In this document: positions 55,981 to 64,000 of the stretch, piece after piece
How the letters are laid out: each line of letters opens with the position of its first letter
Position numbering within the stretch: position 1 is the first letter of the stretch
Origin: Streptomyces capitiformicae
Lineage (GTDB): Bacteria > Actinomycetota > Actinomycetes > Streptomycetales > Streptomycetaceae
Length of the DNA: 64,000 nt
NCBI RefSeq assembly: GCF_002214185.1
Contig: NZ_CP022161.1
Coordinates: 1 to 64,000 of the forward strand
Reading direction: 5' to 3'
Position numbers and translations under genes: made by a program
Notes under the pieces: generated by a model
What the model was told of the DNA's origin: nothing
Databases searched by the model: none
The model's input: only the letters and a program-made list of their open reading frames with translations

Positions 55981-57006
55981 TCAGGTCTGCCGCAGCGGGT
56001 CGTACTCCTCCGCGCTCAGGCCGAAGGTCCAGGCCACTCCCTCCCGGGCCGTGCGTGTCGTCGGTGGCACCCGGAGCCAGTACGTGCGGCTCGTGCCGTC
56101 CGGCTCCGGGGTGGAGTTGACCACCTCGACCATCACCGCGTCCTCGTCGCCGGGCAGTTCTATGCGCCAGAGGACGCCCGTCTCGTCGCGGTGTACGGGC
56201 CTCGCCCCGGATTTCTCCAGATAGCGGTCGTAGCCGTAGTACTCCAACATCACGCGGCGCAGTTCGGCGTTCTCCTCGTTACGGATCCGCTCGGGTGTCA
56301 ACGTGTCGAGGCTGTCGAGGAACTCACCGGGTACGGGCAGTCCACGCCAGGCGTGCAGGGCGAAGCCGTCGGAGTAGGCGAGCGCCGGGCCGTCGCCGCG
56401 GTCGAGGCGGCCGGCCTCGTCGCGATGGAGCTGAGTGGGTCGTTCGGTGATGATCGCGACGTTCTCGTACGGCCACCACCAGCCCGCTGTGCGGGCCACC
56501 TCGGTCAGGCCGTCGAGACCGGAGGCGGTGTCGAGGGCGGAGAGCCAGGCCGCGTCGTGCTGGCCGAGGACGGCGTCCAGAAGGAGGAGCCGGATCCGGG
56601 TTTCCGCCTTCCGGTCGTCGGGGGCCAGGGCCTCGACGATGCCGGTGCGGACACGGTCGACGAGCGGGCGGGTCGTCTCCCACAGGTCGGCGCCGGCCGT
56701 CCGCCAGTGATCGCTCCAGCCCGTGGGGCCCAAGCGGGTGTGCAGTCGGGCGCGTTCGGCGGCGACGGGTCTGGTGCGGACCGCGTCACGGACGCTCGGC
56801 CCCGTCGGCGGCAGGGCCTCGGCGTCTTCCGCCGGCCCGCCCGACAGCAGGCGTACCGCCTCCAGCGGTGAGCGGGCCCACACGATCCTCCCGGGCTCCC
56901 GCAGCCCCGCCCGCTGGTACGCGAGACGCACGCCCGCTTCAGCGCGTGCCCGGTCGCCCGGTCCTGTGGCGGCCGCCACCGCGCGCCAACTCGTCTGTTC
57001 CGTCAC
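55981..57006 (-). CDS. DUF6745-like protein
   Basis: 341 residues from GTG 57006 with GAGGAGAA upstream. Soluble and rich in charged residues and tryptophan. Visible features are GWWWPYENVAIITERPTQLHRDEAGRL with GDGPALAYSDGFALHAWRGLPVP, quoted as pieces, and MLEYYGYDRYLEKSGARPVHRDETG. This text is typical of the DUF6745 domain as I recall it, a family of unknown function often next to leucine-rich proteins. It is preceded by the small GEVTGHAHA gene (57-base gap) and lies divergent from the STM4015-type LRR gene, so the three may belong to one system. Confidence 0.75.
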   Translation of the reverse strand: MTEQTSWRAVAAATGPGDRARAEAGVRLAYQRAGLREPGRIVWARSPLEAVRLLSGGPAEDAEALPPTGPSVRDAVRTRPVAAERARLHTRLGPTGWSDHWRTAGADLWETTRPLVDRVRTGIVEALAPDDRKAETRIRLLLLDAVLGQHDAAWLSALDTASGLDGLTEVARTAGWWWPYENVAIITERPTQLHRDEAGRLDRGDGPALAYSDGFALHAWRGLPVPGEFLDSLDTLTPERIRNEENAELRRVMLEYYGYDRYLEKSGARPVHRDETGVLWRIELPGDEDAVMVEVVNSTPEPDGTSRTYWLRVPPTTRTAREGVAWTFGLSAEEYDPLRQT

Positions 57007-57063
57007 GCCGTTTCTCCTCGTCGTCCTGTGCCTCGTGCCTGTACCTCGTGTCGGCCCGCGGGC

Positions 57064-57390
57064 TCAGTCCGCGACGATCCGGACCGAGCCCGGTACGTAC
57101 TCGCGCTGGCGTATGACCCGGTACCAGCCCTTCGGCAGGGAGATGGCCGCGTGCTCCTCGTGGACGACGCGGGCGCCCTCCGGCACGTGCAGCAGCATCG
57201 GCCCGAAGGCGTCCGTCTCGCGGATCAGCCGGCCCGGGCCGACCACGGCGTGTGCGTGCCCCGTGACCTCGCCGAGAGCGAGGACGAGTCGGCCACGGCG
57301 GTCGCGCGGTTCCGACGTGGCGTCAAATGCGGTGTCGGGCACGGCGCTCTCGGCCAGCGGCGCGATGAGGACGTCTCCTTGCCGGTACAT
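57064..57390 (-). CDS. Small conserved protein with GEVTGHAHA motif
   Basis: 108 residues from ATG 57390, with an excellent ribosome site (GGGAGGGAG). It begins MYRQGDVLIAPL and contains GRLVLALGEVTGHAHAVVG, then a compact beta-rich end (LHVPEGARVVHEEHAAI, GWYRVIRQREY). The same opening and the GEVTGHAHA motif occur, as I recall, in small uncharacterised proteins of bacteria and phages. His residues in GHAHA and HEEH could bind a metal. It is upstream of, and likely co-transcribed with, the DUF6745 gene. Confidence 0.75.
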   Translation of the reverse strand: MYRQGDVLIAPLAESAVPDTAFDATSEPRDRRGRLVLALGEVTGHAHAVVGPGRLIRETDAFGPMLLHVPEGARVVHEEHAAISLPKGWYRVIRQREYVPGSVRIVAD

Positions 57391-57628
57391 GGGTCTCCCT
57401 CCCGTCGGGCACTCGCTGTGCCACGAAAGGACCGTAGAGGCAGGCACTGACAATCGCCCCGCACGCGGTGGCCGTCCACAGGAAGAGGGGTCCGCCGATC
57501 GCGTTGTCAGTGAGGCTTGGTAGAACTCCCCTACCCGGCGGCGCTGTGTGCGCTCCGGGTTCGACGGGCGGGTACGGGCACGGGCTCGGGGCCGGCACAG
57601 GGACAGGGAACGAAGGGGCGGGGCGCAC

Positions 57629-58597
57629 ATGACCATCGGGAGCCATCTGGAGGAGTTCCACGACCTGCCGGTCCGTGTTTTCCCCAGCTCCGTGAAGGGC
57701 CCGAAGGGCGCCGCGCAGCTGCCGGCTCCCGAGTCGGTGGCGTGGCGCGTCGGCGTGTCGGCGTACGAGAGCGACGAGGCGTGGGAGGAGGCGTTCGCCC
57801 GGTTCCTCGCCTCCGTCGACACCACGAAGGTGCGGGCGCTGGTGGTGGGTGCCTGGAGCGACGCGTACGACAGCGGCCCCGAGCCGGTGATCGAGGCGCT
57901 GGTGGCGGCGAAGGACCGGCTGCCCGCGCTGCGGGGACTGTTCCTCGGCGACATCGTGATGGAGGAGTGCGAGATCTCCTGGATCAACCAGGGCGATGTG
58001 AGCCCACTGCTGAACACCTTCACGGCGTTGGAGGAGTTCGGGGTGCGCGGCGGCAGCGGGCTCGGTTTCCCCGCGCTGCGCCACGAGCGGCTGCGGAAGC
58101 TGACGGTCGAGACCGGTGGCATGCCCGCCGAGGCGGTGCGCGGTGTGGCGGCCTGTGAGCTGCCGGCCCTGGTCCACCTGGACCTGTGGCTGGGCACCGA
58201 CGAGTACGGCGGTGACTCCGAGGTAGCCGATCTGGCGCCGATCCTGGCGGGCACCCGGCTGCCGGCTCTCAAGCATCTGGCGCTGCGCAACAGCGAGATG
58301 CAGGACGACATCTGCACGGCGTTGGCCTCCGCCCCGGTGGTGGCCCGCCTCGACGTCCTCGACGTGTCGATGGGCGTCCTGACCGACGACGGGGCGACCG
58401 CGCTGCTCACGGGACAGCCGCTGACCCACCTCACGACGCTGGACCTGCACCACAACTACCTGAGCGCGGAGATACGCGACCGGCTGAGGGACTCCCTGGA
58501 GGCCGAGGGCGTACAGGTCGATGTCGATCCGGACGACGCAGAGCAGGACGAGGAGGACGACGGCACGGTGTGGCGCTTCGTCGCGGTGGGCGAGTAG
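57629..58597 (+). CDS. STM4015 family leucine-rich-repeat protein
   Basis: 322 residues from ATG 57629 (AAGGGGCGGGG upstream). After an N-terminal part (SHLEEFHDLPVRVFP, AYESDEAWEEAFARFLASVD) the second half is a leucine-rich repeat array with strand motifs such as LPALVHLDLWLG, LPALKHLALRNS, RLDVLDVSMG and HLTTLDLHHNYLS. The tail is very acidic (DPDDAEQDEEDDG). This matches the STM4015 family as I know it by name. It is the first gene of the plus-strand STM4015-4014-4013-4012-4011 run. A protein-binding or scaffold role for the system is an inference from the repeat fold. Confidence 0.85.
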   Translation: MTIGSHLEEFHDLPVRVFPSSVKGPKGAAQLPAPESVAWRVGVSAYESDEAWEEAFARFLASVDTTKVRALVVGAWSDAYDSGPEPVIEALVAAKDRLPALRGLFLGDIVMEECEISWINQGDVSPLLNTFTALEEFGVRGGSGLGFPALRHERLRKLTVETGGMPAEAVRGVAACELPALVHLDLWLGTDEYGGDSEVADLAPILAGTRLPALKHLALRNSEMQDDICTALASAPVVARLDVLDVSMGVLTDDGATALLTGQPLTHLTTLDLHHNYLSAEIRDRLRDSLEAEGVQVDVDPDDAEQDEEDDGTVWRFVAVGE

Positions 58598-58638
58598 CGG
58601 CGCGGGGGGTTCGGGGGTTTCGAGTGAGGGGGGTCGGT

Positions 58639-59811
58639 GTGTCCGGTGGGACCGGTGCGGGTGCGGGGCCCGGGCCGTACAGGTGGGTGGTCGTCGGCAA
58701 CGGGGAGAACCGGCGGGTCGGGCTGTTCGTCGCGGCGGCGCGGGCGGCCGGGGTCGGCACGCCGCGGGTCGTCGAGTGGCGGGACGTGCTGCGCGACGGC
58801 GGCCATGAGTTCGCCGACGACGAGGTCGTACGGCTGGACTCGCCCGGGGAGGACGCCGAGGTGGACCGGCGCTTGCGCGGCGTCGACGATCCGACGCGTG
58901 TGGAGGGGTCGGCCACCTGGTACGCCCGTTTCCTGGATGCCGTCCGGTCGTTGCGTGGCGGGGTGCGGCTGGACGATCCGGACGATCTGGCGGTGCTGTT
59001 CGACAAGCGGCTGTGCCATGCCCGGCTCGACGCGACGGGCGTCCCGGTGCCGCCGTCGCCGACCTCGGGCGGTGTGCTGGCGGTGCGGGGCTGGGACGAC
59101 GTACGGGCGGCGATGCGGGAGCACGGCATGCCGCGTGTCTTCGTGAAACCGGCGCACGGGTCCTCCGCGTCCGGGGTCCTCGCCGTCGAGTCGTCGGCGA
59201 GCGGGCGGATCAGGGCCACGACCTCGGTCGAGGTGGCCGCGGACGGGCGGCTCCATGCCCCGCCGCGGCTGCACAACTCGCTGCGGGTCCGCCGGTACAC
59301 CGACGAGGGGGAGATCGCCGGCATCGTCGACGCCCTCGCGCCCGACGGGTTGCACATCGAGCGCTGGCTGCCGAAGGCGTCCGCCCAGGGCAGGTCGGCC
59401 GATCTGCGGGTCCTGGTCGTGGCGGGCCGCGCGACGCACGCCGTCGTGCGCACCAGCCGGTTCCCCATGACGAACCTCCATCTCGGCGGGGCGCGCGGCG
59501 ATCTGGCGTCGGTCGTCGACGCGGCGGGCGACCGCTGGCGGCAGGCGCTCGACATCTGTGAGCAGGCGGCGGCCTGTTTCCCCCGCACGCTGTGCGTGGG
59601 CGTCGATCTGCTGCCGGCGATCGGCTGGCGTCGGTTCGCGGTCGGCGAGGTCAACGCCTTCGGAGACCTGCTGCCCCGGCTGACCGGCCTGCCGGGCAGC
59701 CCGGCGGAAGGCCTGGACACGTACGCCGCGCAGATCGCGGCGGTGCGGAGCCAGGTGCTCCCGACGCCCTCGCACGACCCTCGGCCGAGGAAAGACCATG
59801 CACCCTTCTGA
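58639..59811 (+). CDS. STM4014 family ATP-grasp-like protein
   Basis: 390 residues from GTG 58639 (GAGGGGG just upstream; GTG 58624 is an alternative). The sequence has an N-terminal nucleotide-fold segment (YRWVVVGNGENRRVGLFVAA), then LFDKRLCHARLDATGVPVP, RVFVKPAHGSSASGVLAVE (ATP-grasp-type Lys and Gly-rich loop), HIERWLPKASAQGRSADLRVLVV and FAVGEVNAFGDLLPRL (metal/ATP-binding Glu-Asn). These fit the ATP-grasp fold, suggesting an ATP-dependent ligase that forms an amide, ester or thioester bond. The stop overlaps the next gene by 14 bases, so translation is linked. Confidence 0.85.
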   Translation: MSGGTGAGAGPGPYRWVVVGNGENRRVGLFVAAARAAGVGTPRVVEWRDVLRDGGHEFADDEVVRLDSPGEDAEVDRRLRGVDDPTRVEGSATWYARFLDAVRSLRGGVRLDDPDDLAVLFDKRLCHARLDATGVPVPPSPTSGGVLAVRGWDDVRAAMREHGMPRVFVKPAHGSSASGVLAVESSASGRIRATTSVEVAADGRLHAPPRLHNSLRVRRYTDEGEIAGIVDALAPDGLHIERWLPKASAQGRSADLRVLVVAGRATHAVVRTSRFPMTNLHLGGARGDLASVVDAAGDRWRQALDICEQAAACFPRTLCVGVDLLPAIGWRRFAVGEVNAFGDLLPRLTGLPGSPAEGLDTYAAQIAAVRSQVLPTPSHDPRPRKDHAPF

Positions 59812-60664
59812 CACGGCGCCCGCGCCGCCCTTCGAGGCCACCACGCAGCCACCCGACATGAACGAGGTCGTGGGCCGCGACGACCTGCTGCTGCTCACCC
59901 TCGACACCTTGCGGTACGACGTGGCCGTCGAGCTCACGGCGGCCGGCCGGCTGCCGAATCTGGCCGCCCGTCTGCCGGGCGGCACCTGGGAGAGGCGGCA
60001 CGCGCCCGGCAGCTTCACCTATGCGTCGCACCAGGCGATGTTCGCGGGCTTCCTGCCGACCCCGGCGGCGCCCGGACCGCATCCGCGGCTGTTCGCGGGC
60101 CGGTTCGCCGGCAGTGAGACGACCGCGGGGCGCACGTTCGTCTTCGACAGCCCGGACCTGGTGACGGCGCTCGCCGAGCACGGCTATCGCACGGTGTGCA
60201 TCGGCGGTGTCGGCTTCTTCAACAAGCGGGGAGCGCTCGGGAACGTGCTGCCGGGCCTGTTCCAGGAGAGCCATTGGGAGCCGGAGTTCTCGGTGGCGTC
60301 ACCGACGTCCTTCGAGTCACAGGTGGCCCGCGCCGAGCGGGTCGTGGCCGAACTGCCCGCCGAGCAGCGGCTGTTCCTGTTCCTCAACGCCTCGGCGCTG
60401 CACCAGCCCAACTGGTTCCATCTGCCCGGCGCCACCCGCGAGGCGGGCGACAGCCTGGTCACGCACGCGGCCGCCCTGGAGTACATCGACCGGCACATCG
60501 GCCGGCTCTTCGCCGCGATGAGTTCCCGCCGCCGCTGCTTCGCGATCGTCTGCTCCGACCACGGAACCGCGTACGGCGACGACGGATACACCGGGCACCG
60601 GCTCGGCCACGAGACCGTGTGGACCGTCCCCTACAGCCACTTCTTCCTGGAGGCGTCCGCGTGA
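59798..60664 (+). CDS. STM4013/SEN3800 family hydrolase (alkaline phosphatase/sulfatase fold)
   Basis: 288 residues from ATG 59798 (GAGGAAAG upstream, inside the previous gene). The opening RDDLLLLTLDTLRYDVA is the metal-binding Asp-Thr-Leu-Arg-Tyr-Asp motif of alkaline phosphatase/sulfatase-type enzymes. SFTYASHQAMFAGFLP follows at the nucleophile position, and the second metal site is CSDHGTAYGDDGYTGHRLGH. It should hydrolyse or transfer a phosphate, phosphonate or sulfate group. The family name is recalled from curated models. The stop overlaps the next start as GTGA. Confidence 0.85.
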   Translation: MHPSDTAPAPPFEATTQPPDMNEVVGRDDLLLLTLDTLRYDVAVELTAAGRLPNLAARLPGGTWERRHAPGSFTYASHQAMFAGFLPTPAAPGPHPRLFAGRFAGSETTAGRTFVFDSPDLVTALAEHGYRTVCIGGVGFFNKRGALGNVLPGLFQESHWEPEFSVASPTSFESQVARAERVVAELPAEQRLFLFLNASALHQPNWFHLPGATREAGDSLVTHAAALEYIDRHIGRLFAAMSSRRRCFAIVCSDHGTAYGDDGYTGHRLGHETVWTVPYSHFFLEASA

Positions 60665-62010
60665 CCGTCATCGACCTGCCCACCACCCGGACGCGGCCGT
60701 ACCAGCACTACGTGTACGCCTACCCCCACAAGACCGCCTACCGAGAGCTGGAGGAGAAACCCCGGCTGGCGGACCTGTGGGCCGGGGAATCCAGGCAGGC
60801 CCTGTCGCTGTACGCGCACATACCGTTCTGCGAGGTCCGCTGCGGCTTCTGCAATCTGTTCACCCGTGTCGGCGCGCCCGACGGGCTGACCGGCCGTTAC
60901 CTCGACGCGCTGGAGCGGCAGGCGATCGCGGTGCGGGAGGCGCTCGGGGACGCGGAGCCGGTGCGGTTCGCGAACGCCGCGTTCGGCGGTGGCACGCCCA
61001 CCTTTCTGGAGGCCGCCGAGCTGGCGCGGCTGTGCGACATCGCGGAACGGCACATGGGCGCGGACCTGCGGGCGATCCCGCTGTCGGTGGAGGCCTCCCC
61101 CGCCACGGCGACGGCCGACCGGCTGGCCGTGCTGGCCGAGCGGGGCACGACGCGGCTGAGCCTCGGCGTACAGAGCTTCGTCGAGGAGGAAGCGCGTGCG
61201 GCCGTACGACCCCAGCGGCGGAGTGATGTGGAGGCGGCACTGTCCCGGATCCGCGACACCCGCATTCCCGTCCTCAACATCGACCTGATCTACGGCATCG
61301 ACGGGCAGACGGCGGCCAGTTGGCGGCTGTCCCTGGACGCGGCGCTCGCCTGGCGGCCCGAGGAGATCTACCTCTACCCGCTGTACGTACGGCCGTTGAC
61401 CGGACTGGGGCGTAGCGCCGACCCGGAGGGCGCGGACCGCGCCTGGGACGAGGCCCGGCTGAGCCGCTACCGCGAGGGCCGCGACCATCTCCTCGCCCAC
61501 GGCTACGAGCAGGTCTCCATGCGGATGTTCCGCCGCACGGACGCCCCGCCGCAGGGCCCGGACGACTACGCCTGCCAGACCGACGGCATGATCGGCCTGG
61601 GCTGCGGCGCCCGTTCGTACACCTCCCGGCTGCACTACTCCTTCGACTACGCGGTCAACATGGGGCAGATCCGCGGGATCATCGACGACTACACCGCCAC
61701 TGAGGACTTCGGCCGGGCCGTCGTCGGCCGCCGGGTCGACGAGGACGAGGCGCGGCGTCGGTATCTGCTGCAGTCGCTGCTCCAGGCGTGGGGGTTGCCG
61801 GTGGCCGACTACCGGCGGCAGTTCGGGACCGACCCGTACGACGACTTCCCGGTGGAGCTGGGGCGGCTGGCCTCGCGCGGTTGGCTGGCGGACGCGGGCG
61901 CGGATCTCGTGAAGCTTTCCGCCGAGGGGCTCGCGTACTCGGACGCCATCGGACCCGAGTTCTTCTCCCCCGCCGTACGGGCCGCGATGGCCGCCTACGA
62001 GCTGAAGTGA
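60661..62010 (+). CDS. STM4012 family radical SAM protein (HemN-like)
   Basis: 449 residues from GTG 60661 (GTGA overlap with the previous stop). The radical SAM iron-sulfur motif CxxxCxxC is C57, C61, C64 in PFCEVRCGFCNLF. The HemN-like features AAFGGGTPTFLEAAELARL, RLSLGVQSFVEEEARAAVRP, NIDLIYGIDGQ and YLYPLYVRPLTGLGR follow. A C-terminal winged-helix-type region comes last. This is the plan of coproporphyrinogen-dehydrogenase-like enzymes, which include methyltransferases and cyclopropanases, so the reaction cannot be named. The gene sits between the hydrolase and the second radical SAM gene in a tightly overlapping operon. Confidence 0.9.
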   Translation: MTVIDLPTTRTRPYQHYVYAYPHKTAYRELEEKPRLADLWAGESRQALSLYAHIPFCEVRCGFCNLFTRVGAPDGLTGRYLDALERQAIAVREALGDAEPVRFANAAFGGGTPTFLEAAELARLCDIAERHMGADLRAIPLSVEASPATATADRLAVLAERGTTRLSLGVQSFVEEEARAAVRPQRRSDVEAALSRIRDTRIPVLNIDLIYGIDGQTAASWRLSLDAALAWRPEEIYLYPLYVRPLTGLGRSADPEGADRAWDEARLSRYREGRDHLLAHGYEQVSMRMFRRTDAPPQGPDDYACQTDGMIGLGCGARSYTSRLHYSFDYAVNMGQIRGIIDDYTATEDFGRAVVGRRVDEDEARRRYLLQSLLQAWGLPVADYRRQFGTDPYDDFPVELGRLASRGWLADAGADLVKLSAEGLAYSDAIGPEFFSPAVRAAMAAYELK

Positions 62011-62018
62011 CGGCCGCC

Positions 62019-62873
62019 ATGGACCTGACGCTCCTCTACCGTGGGCCGCTCGCTTCCTGCGACTACGACTGCCCCTACTGTCCCTTCGCCAAGCGGCGTG
62101 ACTCGACGGCACAGTTGCGGGCCGACCGTGCCGCCCTGGACCGTTTCACGACGTGGGCGCGGGAGCAGACCGACGACCGGCTCTCGGTGCTCTTCACACC
62201 CTGGGGTGAGGGGCTGGTGCGTTCCTGGTACCGCAGGGCGCTGGTGGAGTTGTCGCACGAGCCGCATATCGACCGGGTGGCGATCCAGACCAATCTCAGT
62301 TGCCGTACGGAGTGGTTGGCCGAGGCCGACCTGGAAACCGTGGCGCTGTGGTGCACGTATCACCCGGGGCAGACGCCGTACGAGCGGTTCCTCGACAAGA
62401 CGCGTCGGCTGGATGGGATCGGCGTCCGCTTCAGTGTGGGGATCGTCGGGCTGCCGGAGCATCTGAACCAGGCCAGGCGGCTGCGCGCGGAGCTGCCGGA
62501 GCGGGTGTACCTGTGGGTGAACGCCGCCGACGGGCACACGTACACCGACGAACAGGCGGCGCTGTGGAGCGAGTTGGACCCCTTGTTCTCCTTCAGCCGG
62601 CATCCGCACCGCTCGGCGGGTCGCGCGTGCCGTACCGGTTCGACGGTCGTGTCGGTGGACGGAGAGGGGACGGTACGGCGCTGTCACTTCGTCAAGGACG
62701 AGTTGGGCAACCTCTACGACGGCTCCTTCCGTGTTGCTCTCGCACCCCGCCCGTGCCCGCTGGCCGTCTGCGACTGCCACATCGGCTACGTCCACCTGGA
62801 ATCCCTGCCGCTGTACGACGTGTTCGCCGGCGGCGTCCTCGAACGGGTACCGACCATGGAGGCTCGTGTCTGA
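62019..62873 (+). CDS. STM4011 family radical SAM protein
   Basis: 284 residues from ATG 62019. An in-frame GTG at 62007 overlaps the preceding stop as GTGA and is an alternative start. The N-terminal cluster motif CxxxCxxC is C14, C18, C21 in SCDYDCPYCPFAKRR. Then come VLFTPWGEGLVRSWY, VAIQTNLSCRTEWL and GVRFSVGIVGLPEHL. The C-terminal cysteine set (CRTGSTVVSVDGEGTVRRCHF, CPLAVCDCHIGY, quoted in parts) may hold a second cluster. The short size and second Cys set resemble SPASM/twitch-type peptide or substrate modifiers. It is the last gene of the operon and convergent with the LuxR-type regulator. Confidence 0.9.
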   Translation: MDLTLLYRGPLASCDYDCPYCPFAKRRDSTAQLRADRAALDRFTTWAREQTDDRLSVLFTPWGEGLVRSWYRRALVELSHEPHIDRVAIQTNLSCRTEWLAEADLETVALWCTYHPGQTPYERFLDKTRRLDGIGVRFSVGIVGLPEHLNQARRLRAELPERVYLWVNAADGHTYTDEQAALWSELDPLFSFSRHPHRSAGRACRTGSTVVSVDGEGTVRRCHFVKDELGNLYDGSFRVALAPRPCPLAVCDCHIGYVHLESLPLYDVFAGGVLERVPTMEARV

Positions 62874-62973: not shown

Positions 62974-64000
62974 TCAGGCGCCGCGATTGCCCCACATGTG
63001 GGCCAGCTCCACACGGGACGAAACGTCCAGCTTCCGGAATATCTTGCGTAAATGGAACGCCACTGTGTGCCGTGACAGAGAAAGCACGCGGGCGACCTGA
63101 ACGTTCGTCATTCCCTGGGCCACGAGTTTGGCGACGGCCTGTTCGCTCCTCGTCAGCTGGGAGAATTCCGGATGCTGTTCCTCTCGTACCGGCGGAGCGG
63201 GGTTCGTTCCGTTGATTCCGCCTAGTTCGCGAATTCTGGAAGTGGTCCTCATGTAGTCGTAGAGTGAGCCCGAAGCCAGGTAGGCGGCGCCCGCCTCGCC
63301 GAGTACGTCCGCGGCGTGCGCGCGTTGGGTGCGGCTCGCGGCCAGCAGGGTGCCGATGTCCTCCAGGGCCGAGGCCCTGGCCCAGGGGTCCGCGTGCGCG
63401 TCGGCCGCGCGCCTGAGGTCGTCGACGCCGGCCTCGACGACTCCCCGGGTGTGCAGGGCCGCGGCGGTCACGGTCGGGAAGAAGGGGTTCCGTGCGGCGA
63501 GGGTCACGACGGTCGTCAACGCGCGGTGGGCCAGCGCGGGTTCGCCGACGCCGAGGGCGAACCGGGCCAGCCAGGGCGCGGCTCCCGGTTGGGCGAGCAG
63601 CAGTTCCCGGCTCACCGGGCCCGGCTCGACGAGTTCCCTGGTCAGCCGTAGGGCGCCTTCGATGTCGTGTGTGGCCCGGTAGGCCAGCGCGGTCACCCAG
63701 GCGCACTGCCCGGGCACGTACAGGGAGCGGCCGAGCATCGCGTCCTCGCCGATGCGTGTCACATGGGTCATCGCCGCCGCGATGTCGACCTTCCGGAGGG
63801 CGGCTGTCGCCAGCAGGGCCTGGCCCGGGGAGTGACACTGGCGCAGACCGTCGCGCTCGGCGGCGGCCAGGCCCTCCACGGTCAGGGCGAACGCGGACTC
63901 CACGTCTCCCGTCGTGAGCGCCAGCTGCGCCCGGAGCACGGCCAGGACGGTCCGGTCCCGCAGGGGGACCTCGCCGGCGGTGTGCGCGGGGGCCTCCTGC
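62974..64000 (-). CDS. LuxR family transcriptional regulator (5' partial)
   Basis: About 342 residues are visible, and the frame stays open to the right edge. The N-terminal part is a helical repeat (TPR-like) region (LRAQLALTTGDVESAFALTV, AALEDIG-like segments such as RASALEDIGTLLAA). The C-terminus is a LuxR DNA-binding domain (LTRSEQAVAKLVAQGMTNVQ, then VARVLSLSRHTVAFHLRKIF and RKLDVSSRVELAHMW). This is the tail of the large LAL-type or TPR-LuxR regulators common in Streptomyces; whether an ATPase domain precedes cannot be seen. It is convergent to the STM4011 gene with a 100-base gap, and control of that operon is possible but unproven. Confidence 0.85.
   Translation of the reverse strand, partial: QEAPAHTAGEVPLRDRTVLAVLRAQLALTTGDVESAFALTVEGLAAAERDGLRQCHSPGQALLATAALRKVDIAAAMTHVTRIGEDAMLGRSLYVPGQCAWVTALAYRATHDIEGALRLTRELVEPGPVSRELLLAQPGAAPWLARFALGVGEPALAHRALTTVVTLAARNPFFPTVTAAALHTRGVVEAGVDDLRRAADAHADPWARASALEDIGTLLAASRTQRAHAADVLGEAGAAYLASGSLYDYMRTTSRIRELGGINGTNPAPPVREEQHPEFSQLTRSEQAVAKLVAQGMTNVQVARVLSLSRHTVAFHLRKIFRKLDVSSRVELAHMWGNRGA

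Follow-up and report, generated by a model that had tools for sequence, protein, structure and literature searches.

For mycofactocin, the extreme C-terminus of MftA is described as almost unchanging in protein but not in DNA sequence, which formed part of the argument for a precursor (PMC3023750). RimK is known as an ATP-dependent ligase whose target is the C-terminus of ribosomal protein RpsF (S6) (PMC4741518). In the precursors of the NHLP/Nif11 type the leader is a larger protein domain, and paralogue expansion in cyanobacteria is reported (PMC2887384). We compared these systems with the STM4011-STM4015 operon found in a window of 64,000 nucleotides, positions 1 to 64,000 of contig NZ_CP022161.1 of Streptomyces capitiformicae. 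As with MftA/MftC, a radical SAM cluster lies beside a product with a nearly invariant extreme C-terminus (PMC3023750). However, MftA is a short peptide, whereas STM4015 has about 320 residues with a leucine-rich-repeat (LRR) domain; the tail sequence, the second radical SAM enzyme, the ATP-grasp and the phosphatase-fold enzyme also differ. STM4014 shows weak similarity to RimK (7e-5; 22.3 bits, far under the model cut-off of 143.4), but represents its own family. To our knowledge, the RimK system includes no radical SAM enzyme. In contrast to NHLP/Nif11, the leader of STM4015 would be an LRR region about 290 residues long, its tail is conserved and not hypervariable, and other enzymes are present.

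The operon occurs in many phyla, also in Salmonella, and goes by locus names alone. That these families carry names without a function was confirmed for open-licence papers, in which none was found under those names; the papers that name STM4013 or STM4015 list them in tables. Described here are the STM4015 tail, the copy-number pattern of STM4015 and the module of a DUF6745 gene and a small gene with its phage and VWA contexts. We propose, at slightly less than even confidence, that STM4011-4015 is a protein-maturation system with the LRR protein STM4015 as substrate, to which the DUF6745/small-gene pair would be an optional second module. The features of the locus are as follows.

55981-57006, minus strand: DUF6745 gene, partner of the small gene; Pfam PF20530, 389 bits (cut-off 27)
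57064-57390, minus strand: small gene; product mostly beta, with GE-TGH-H ... H-EH and a C-terminal Asp conserved; phage-related candidate metalloprotein; phrog_27831, 1.6e-15
57391-57628, no strand: divergent intergenic region between the DUF6745/small pair and the STM operon, 238 bp before STM4015, read directly from the sequence
57629-58597, plus strand: STM4015, LRR protein, proposed substrate/precursor; NF038076, 399 bits (cut-off 275); multi-copy in 16/60 complete operons
58523-58570, plus strand: acidic linker of STM4015 between LRR body and tail, poorly conserved; acidic fraction 0.44 at -20 to -9 (82 proteins)
58571-58594, plus strand: C-terminal octapeptide W-R-F-V-A-V-G-E of STM4015, immediately 5' of the stop codon; Glu end in 78/82 members
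58624-59811, plus strand: STM4014, ATP-grasp ligase with weak RimK/LysX similarity; NF038074, 455 bits (cut-off 175); rimK_fam, 7e-5
59798-60664, plus strand: STM4013, metallohydrolase or transferase of the alkaline-phosphatase/sulfatase superfamily; NF038075, 423 bits (cut-off 250); Pfam Sulfatase match
60661-62010, plus strand: STM4012, HemN-like radical SAM enzyme; NF006067, 644 bits (cut-off 380)
62019-62873, plus strand: STM4011, radical SAM enzyme with five extra invariant Cys, perhaps SPASM/twitch-like; NF038073, 414 bits (cut-off 200)

All seven genes, five on the plus and two on the minus strand, were confirmed with the reading frames and order first described. From STM4015 to STM4011 the genes follow each other with 26 bp, a 14-bp overlap, a 4-bp overlap and 8 bp, as calculated with predicted start codons. 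All five NCBIfam families exceed their curated cut-offs in one operon and in NCBIfam gene order, and the operons of Salmonella, Deinococcus, Paenibacillus and Methylobacterium have the same content. The identification of STM4011-STM4015 and DUF6745 is not due to chance because of these scores and the conserved neighbourhoods. The tightly packed or overlapping genes, catalytic motifs intact, are a conserved unit, and this supports the set of five genes of the preliminary description.

Invariant residues were found in all four enzymes. For STM4014 these are K128, K175, E246, R262, D328 and N344 (43/43 rows), and for STM4013 D36, T74, D254, H255 and H271 (41/41 rows), which we take, by family motifs, to be metal ligands and nucleophile. 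STM4012 carries the CX3CX2C cluster motif with C57, C61 and C64 (46/46 rows) and resembles the solved structures of HemN (1olt) and NocN (9p2u). The same motif is formed in STM4011 by C14, C18 and C21, invariant in 47/47 rows together with five further cysteines, C204, C222, C246, C251 and C253; SPASM models gave no match in the NCBIfam and Pfam searches. The Planctomycetota sample was too sparse to use for STM4011, with 2/149 over the cut-off, one of them the centre genome. Sequence relatives in the PDB were not found for STM4013, and a match for STM4014 spans only 58 residues. The PDB matches of STM4011 were chance antibody matches and were discarded.

Evidence for STM4015 as substrate comes from its C-terminus. 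The family consensus ends approximately with W-R-[YF]-[VI]-A-V-[GSA]-E-COOH behind the poorly conserved acidic linker. In an enlarged de-duplicated set Glu is the last residue of 78/82 members from ten phyla, and all 57 stop-containing reading frames, the copy of the window included, end with E. The information content amounts to 2.56 bits over the last 8 positions and 0.98 over the preceding 16 (82 proteins); a comparable C-terminal jump is not present in STM4014, STM4013 or STM4011. The four members without Glu end are three Herpetosiphon copies with a short extension and one Calothrix copy. Another weak Calothrix member, under the score limit, also lacks the tail. Within the tail only Glu(-1) is near invariant, and S, N or P may stand at -6. 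Diverged cyanobacterial paralogues retain an R-Y-x-x-[VLT]-x-E end (4/4 in Nostoc linckia, 5/7 in Calothrix). The tail is also kept where the DUF6745/small pair is absent, namely in Salmonella, Bacteroides, Paenibacillus and seven same-genus regions. For STM4015 the samples of Bacteroidota (0/296, one just under the cut-off) and Pseudomonadota (1/378, the centre genome) were too sparse to use. In the own 11-Mb genome the tail pattern occurs once, at the STM4015 stop, and a reversed control pattern also once.

At codon level, the synonymous share of differences was 0.57-1.0 at -7, -5, -4, -3 and -1 and 0.02-0.16 in the linker, where changes mostly alter the amino acid. Positions -8, -6 and -2 are mostly non-synonymous (0.00, 0.13 and 0.18). 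Selection at the protein level was shown by this comparison for several tail positions, five of the eight codons being mostly synonymous; the 41 sequences were selected for the tail by a regular expression, so identity at -6, -3 and -1 partly reflects this selection. The preliminary description had seen no obvious precursor peptide. This is perhaps wrong in form, and conservation and codon pattern point to the STM4015 tail as best candidate. As in RiPP systems, a precursor candidate encoded next to putative modifying enzymes has a conserved region, here the octapeptide, whose designation as core we infer. We do not file STM4015 as a RiPP and regard it as a candidate precursor. The operon, to which no function is assigned, thus gains a specific candidate for its substrate and, within it, a short stretch as candidate site of modification.

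Could the tail be structural, closing the LRR solenoid as its C-terminal strand or cap? The family model extends to the last residue, and the distance from LRR motif to C-terminus, placed in 61 of the 82 proteins, is not very variable (41 or 43 in 40 cases, range 39-57). Against this stand the acidic, poorly conserved stretch before the tail and the fact that in almost every member the tail ends directly at the stop codon. Moreover, the octapeptide is missing from four LRR proteins weakly matched in the same searches, one of which does end in Glu. A purely structural tail is very improbable in our view.

The enzymes STM4011-4014 are each present in single copy in 60/60 complete operons, while STM4015 occurs with 2-7 copies in 16 of them; in this count the STM4015 threshold was looser than that of the enzymes, and some array regions were included because arrays had already been seen there. 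Tandem copies with 50-76% overall identity have 5-8 of the last 8 residues in common, compared with 0-11 of the 16 before. Several LRR adaptors on one enzyme set would also fit variable targets with a common dock: STM4015 might recruit a different target for the enzymes, be it protein, RNA or small molecule, with its tail binding one of the enzymes unchanged. A docking peptide, too, would look like a conserved C-terminal tail set off by an acidic linker. Yet a free terminal Glu in 78/82 members beside an ATP-grasp carboxylate ligase exceeds what docking needs, and among the operons read no further non-enzyme gene proved constant. Docking is a possible but rather doubtful explanation.

For the preferred reading, maturation of STM4015, we suggest that STM4011-4014 modify the tail. 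The LRR body would act as leader or scaffold, and the two radical SAM enzymes would alter carbon centres of tail residues. STM4014 might activate the carboxylate of the C-terminal (or a side-chain) Glu with ATP and join an amine, similar to RimK on RpsF; it is proposed to work like RimK, but is not assigned to the RimK-type family. STM4013 may take off or transfer a group resembling phosphate or sulfate. After maturation the tail could stay on the protein as a cofactor or warhead that the LRR domain presents, or be released. If the tail is modified, LRR proteins would be a new scaffold type for radical chemistry. A wider and more speculative version, which we hold to be unlikely, assumes an LRR-led ribosomal precursor class in at least 10 phyla. 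Here, the four enzymes would convert an eight-residue core to a protein-bound or released cofactor or effector, the paralogue arrays would show the same tail on different LRR specificities, and a phage-derived, probably metal-binding protein would, with its DUF6745 partner, read, load or guard the tail.

Conserved C-termini were also found in DUF6745 (Thr/Ala/Ser in 135/137) and in the small protein (Asp in 170/170), including phages without the enzymes. Thus, a conserved end need not mean modification. The small His-rich protein was dropped as precursor peptide; it is modelled as folded and mostly beta, and it is conserved in enzyme-free viral contigs. Its AlphaFold2 model has a pLDDT of 89.9, and 15 residues are invariant in 64/64 chosen rows, while one Skermanella copy departs from the GE-TGH part. 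Pfam and NCBIfam gave no match. The best PDB hit in the fold search had an E value of 0.9. The mostly beta model with its HxH and HxEH motifs recalls a cupin, but cupin matches in Foldseek were weak (E 1.5 and worse). The small protein is probably metal-binding, without solved relative. For DUF6745 the model reached a pLDDT of 94.0, with no PDB match (best fold-search E 0.96), and the profiles of both proteins have no sequence relatives in the PDB. In the viral-library fold search the best matches were all uncharacterised proteins (best E 5.8e-5).

The small protein and DUF6745 match the phage families phrog_27831 and phrog_31813, both without assigned function (the former annotated as 'unknown function'). 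The DUF6745 of the window has an N-terminal half of the phage type; it is devoid of tetrapeptide repeats, in contrast to most of the phage proteins read, which carry long repeat arrays. Both genes adjoin in 79/81 genomic and 68/80 viral copies. A family-typical DUF6745 was found in 76/90 same-genus genomes with STM4011. In 70 of these 76 genomes both genes share a contig at a distance of at most 8.6 kb, with DUF6745 upstream and antiparallel in 70/70. The preliminary description had suggested that the two genes may belong to the operon, naming a lack of co-occurrence elsewhere as possible refutation. The linkage stood, and the claim is not refuted. A fixed association did not stand: the pair is absent in 6/13 plasmid records and in 14/90 same-genus genomes with STM4011, and it is an independent module that outside the STM operon accompanies a VWA gene or is carried by phages. 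In the tree the pairs of Actinobacteria fall together with those of phages (support 88). Mirror-tree correlations show two modules and do not prove an interaction.

The pair might instead stem from phages and serve in conflict, as a defence, exclusion or toxin-like module, which travels with the STM operon outside its chemistry. Its position among DNA-metabolism or accessory genes in named phages, the repeat arrays of phage DUF6745 and the alternative partners, STM and VWA genes, are in line with this. It is opposed by the strict linkage in the genus, where 76/77 family-typical DUF6745 genes co-occur with STM4011, and by the PADLOC search. Its anti-phage defence models gave no match for the small protein and DUF6745 of the window, nor for STM4014, STM4013 and STM4011; one DUF6745 from a phage hit a nickase model (2.6e-8), with its repeat region only. 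Partial matches of STM4015 (1.9e-4) and STM4012 (2.9e-8) were not convincing. We consider a conflict module a real possibility, though a tentative one. In the maturation proposal the pair would be a second, optional module that is linked to the enzymes and evolves apart from them; in it the small, probably metal-binding protein is combined with a partner whose N-terminus can be exchanged (LRR or phage-type). In the simplest view it joined the STM operon more than once, in Actinobacteria from a phage-like branch. The module is a separate phage-linked pair.

The downstream LuxR gene, first mentioned as regulator, was not conserved beside the operon in any of 18 same-genus regions (15 complete operons and 3 remnants, one region stopping about 1.4 kb past STM4011) and was set aside as cognate regulator. 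Peptidase, exporter or transporter families common to the annotated operons read were not found, recurring neighbours being identified in part. In a further reading, the small biosynthetic pathway suggested at first, the four enzymes would make a small molecule (cofactor or natural product) that STM4015 senses or binds. Small molecules are frequent substrates of HemN-like radical SAM enzymes and of enzymes with the alkaline-phosphatase fold, and STM4012 resembles HemN. However, the tail and the STM4015 copy numbers are left unexplained, and we judge this pathway improbable. Individual records show transporters close to the operon, but these belong to different families: ABC in Methylobacterium, efflux genes in Paenibacillus, MFS in Salmonella and MATE in Bacteroides. 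In S. cadmiisoli a gene for a TauE-type exporter overlaps STM4011.

The five plus-strand genes from STM4015 to STM4011 were described in the preliminary description as a tight, partly overlapping set, and this was borne out. All five proteins exceed the NCBIfam cut-offs, and neighbouring genes either lie 26 or 8 bp apart or overlap by 14 or 4 bp. Together with the minus-strand pair, DUF6745 and a small His-rich protein, the locus spans 55981 to 62873 of a 10.99 Mb single-contig genome.

Features of the locus and its flank
55981-57006, minus strand: DUF6745 gene, product above the Pfam cut-off
57064-57390, minus strand: small gene, product of 108 residues matching a phage family of unknown function
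between small gene and STM4015: divergent gap of 238 bp
up to 62873, plus strand: STM4015 to STM4011
62974-63939: LuxR-type regulator, downstream of STM4011

The LuxR gene, placed downstream in the preliminary description, was dropped, since this regulator was absent from the surroundings of the operon in all 18 regions inspected from the genus. For the small protein no Pfam or NCBIfam family was found. That the STM families carry no assigned function was confirmed for the open-licence papers searched, where none was reported. Residue conservation was counted in rows long enough to align, including the window's proteins. STM4011 keeps CX3CX2C and five further cysteines (47/47 rows), STM4012 keeps CX3CX2C (46/46), STM4013 keeps D36, T74, D254, H255 and H271 (41/41), and STM4014 keeps two lysines and D328/N344 (43/43). 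The roles of these residues in STM4011 to STM4014 are presumed from known family motifs.

The leucine-rich-repeat (LRR) protein STM4015 ends in an acidic, poorly conserved linker followed by a mostly hydrophobic octapeptide with terminal Glu. This tail reads WRFVAVGE in the window, YRSIAVSE in Methylobacterium, WRYPSLTE in Paenibacillus, YMNAMYTE in Salmonella and WYYPMITE in Bacteroides. The terminal Glu was found in 57 of 57 STM4015 proteins with a stop, and in 78 of 82 of an enlarged, de-duplicated set admitted on coverage and HMM score (E up to 1e-30). Of the four that deviate, three are Herpetosiphon copies carrying a short extension and the fourth is from Calothrix; another Calothrix member, too weak to pass this E limit, lacks the tail as well. 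STM4015 records came from ten phyla (Actinomycetota, Planctomycetota, Verrucomicrobiota, Chloroflexota, Acidobacteriota, Pseudomonadota, Deinococcota, Bacillota, Bacteroidota and Cyanobacteriota). In the 82 sequences the last eight positions hold 2.56 bits of information, compared with 0.98 in the sixteen before. No comparable C-terminal jump was seen in STM4014, STM4013 or STM4011; the ends of STM4012, DUF6745 and the small protein are conserved in general.

Codons were compared in 41 Actinobacterial copies, selected by a regular expression that itself demands the tail. Counted from the C-terminus, differences at -7, -5, -4, -3 and -1 were mostly synonymous (share 0.57-1.0), those at -8, -6 and -2 mostly non-synonymous (0.00-0.18), and those in the linker hardly ever synonymous (0.02-0.16). 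Glu also ends all 18 STM4015 frames in 15 further same-genus regions, which partly overlap the earlier sets; seven of these regions lack the pair. In the genome of the window the tail-coding pattern matched once (58574-58597), as did the reversed control.

Complete operons were compared in 60 loci, and every one of the four STM enzymes occurs just once in each of them. STM4015 is present there in two copies in nine loci, three in three, four in three and seven in one. Its thresholds in this count were E 1e-20 and half coverage, looser than the E 1e-40 to 1e-100 and 70% applied to the enzymes, and the count includes L236 to L239, which were fetched since arrays had already been observed there. 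The second Embleya copy is a fragment on the opposite strand. In Calothrix (L236:4220-18640), Nostoc linckia (L237) and Herpetosiphon (L238, L239) one STM4011-4014 set lies amid an array of diverged LRR genes of the STM4015 type, four to seven in number. The end R-Y-x-x-[VLT]-x-E is kept by 5/7 array members in Calothrix and 4/4 in Nostoc linckia. Single-copy enzymes beside a multiplying protein of variable body and constant tip look like an enzyme/precursor pattern.

STM4015 may be the substrate of the operon enzymes. The radical SAM enzymes STM4011 and STM4012 would act on the tail and the ATP-grasp ligase STM4014 would target a Glu carboxylate, with a phosphate- or sulfate-like group as the target of STM4013. 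What was observed is limited to the tail, its conservation and the copy pattern; the reading as a whole is tentative, with a probability slightly below even. The chief alternative is that this conserved tail docks without being modified. For the mycofactocin precursor, Haft argued from an invariant C-terminus conserved at the protein level (PMC3023750). Two further papers describe long protein leaders in NHLP/Nif11 precursors (PMC2887384) and ATP-dependent addition to a protein C-terminus by RimK on RpsF (PMC4741518).

Among 199 same-genus genomes 90 have STM4011 above the cut-off, and 77 have a DUF6745 typical of the family (E below 1e-100). Both were found in 76, STM4011 alone in 14 and DUF6745 alone in one (Fisher p 4e-39, kinship uncorrected). 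In 70 genomes both genes share a contig, 4.2-8.6 kb apart, with DUF6745 always upstream and antiparallel; in 6/76 they lie on separate contigs. A partial STM4011 adjoins DUF6745 in the sole DUF6745-only genome (G509), and three genomes (G389, G558, G532) hold remnants of both genes side by side. In 10 same-genus genomes there are also more remote DUF6745 relatives (E 1e-25 to 1e-31), which lie away from STM4011. The suggestion that the pair may belong to the operon is partly supported. Within the genus DUF6745 is linked to it; among 13 plasmid records with STM4011, 7 carry the pair, and it is missing from six, namely two of Embleya, two of Salmonella and one each of Paenibacillus and Bacteroides. 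DUF6745 accompanies the small gene in each of the nine plasmid records that have the latter. On Deinococcus plasmids (L018:8884-10181, L019:8894-10215, L027:8921-10230) DUF6745 and STM4011 are convergent, and the former extends 14-25 bp into the 3' end of the latter. Two Actinomycetota loci outside the genus, L015 (G028) and L016 (G100), hold DUF6745 without an over-cut-off STM4011; in L015 the small gene adjoins it, and this locus groups with STM-linked Actinobacterial pairs.

The pair and the STM enzymes are two modules. When pairwise distances were compared across 35 loci, the correlation was 0.84 between small protein and DUF6745, 0.64-0.79 among the four enzymes and 0.40-0.58 across modules. 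A quick tree built from 128 rows, on which the closest named relatives of the window's genome are Streptomyces, requires five changes of the STM label, at least four by well-supported branches, a count that does not separate gains from losses. Actinobacterial pairs fall with 31 viral pairs into a 50-row group (support 88); the Actinobacterial set and one unlinked relative have support 99, with the exact sister group left unplaced. Pairs of Planctomycetota, Verrucomicrobiota, Pseudomonadota, Cyanobacteriota, Deinococcota and others form a separate 64-row branch (support 100), whose DUF6745 proteins inspected whole (L033, L035, L048) have LRR-like N-termini. The simplest, though tentative, reading is thus that the pair joined the operon more than once.

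A scan with ten small proteins gave at least 536 genomic relatives. The best 80 loci, picked by the small gene and so giving no rate of pair-less STM operons, were used. There, DUF6745 is the direct same-strand neighbour of 79 of the 81 small-gene copies; the other two are L039, which sits at the end of a contig, and L047. Of these 80 loci, 37 have STM genes near the pair, 27 a VWA-domain gene (about 615 residues) and one both. Relative to STM, the copies are convergent (20), co-directional (15), divergent (2) or mixed (1). Where the fetched stretch showed no STM genes beside the pair, 24 genomes were searched, and 7 of them have STM4011 at another place. Genome G221 carries DUF6745 twice: one copy lies 15 bases from STM4011, the other in a VWA-gene locus (L092). 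The VWA protein is the alternative neighbour in Cyanobacteria, Hymenobacter and Deinococcus (e.g. L035:11280-13190, L023:11363-13222), and one Deinococcales locus (L088) combines two pairs, STM genes and a VWA gene.

Of 88 viral relatives 80 loci were used. DUF6745 is adjacent on the same strand in 68 and within 3 kb in 70, and no STM or VWA genes occur in the fetched stretches. It is plausible that the pair is a phage-derived conflict or guard module. Most phage DUF6745 proteins inspected carry V-x-x-Q-type tetrapeptide arrays. The repeats, with variants, lie between N-terminus and DUF6745 domain in L136, L116, L131, L156 and L113 (viral) and L030:739-1929 (Nocardia plasmid); in L136:8517-9046 they are encoded by 44 copies of a 12-base tandem unit. 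The window's DUF6745 has none. Models of DUF6745 (pLDDT 94.0) and of the mostly beta small protein (pLDDT 89.9) gave no PDB match. Fifteen small-protein residues are invariant in 64/64 chosen rows, including H45, H47, H77, E79, H80 and the C-terminal D108, and judged by these residues alone a putative metal site is inferred; the Skermanella protein (L024) deviates in the GE-TGH part. In Microcystis phage Ma-LMM01, a cyanophage, the small gene (L193:6001-6342) lies amid genes for DNA polymerase, exonuclease, dUTPase, uracil-DNA glycosylase and the clamp loader.
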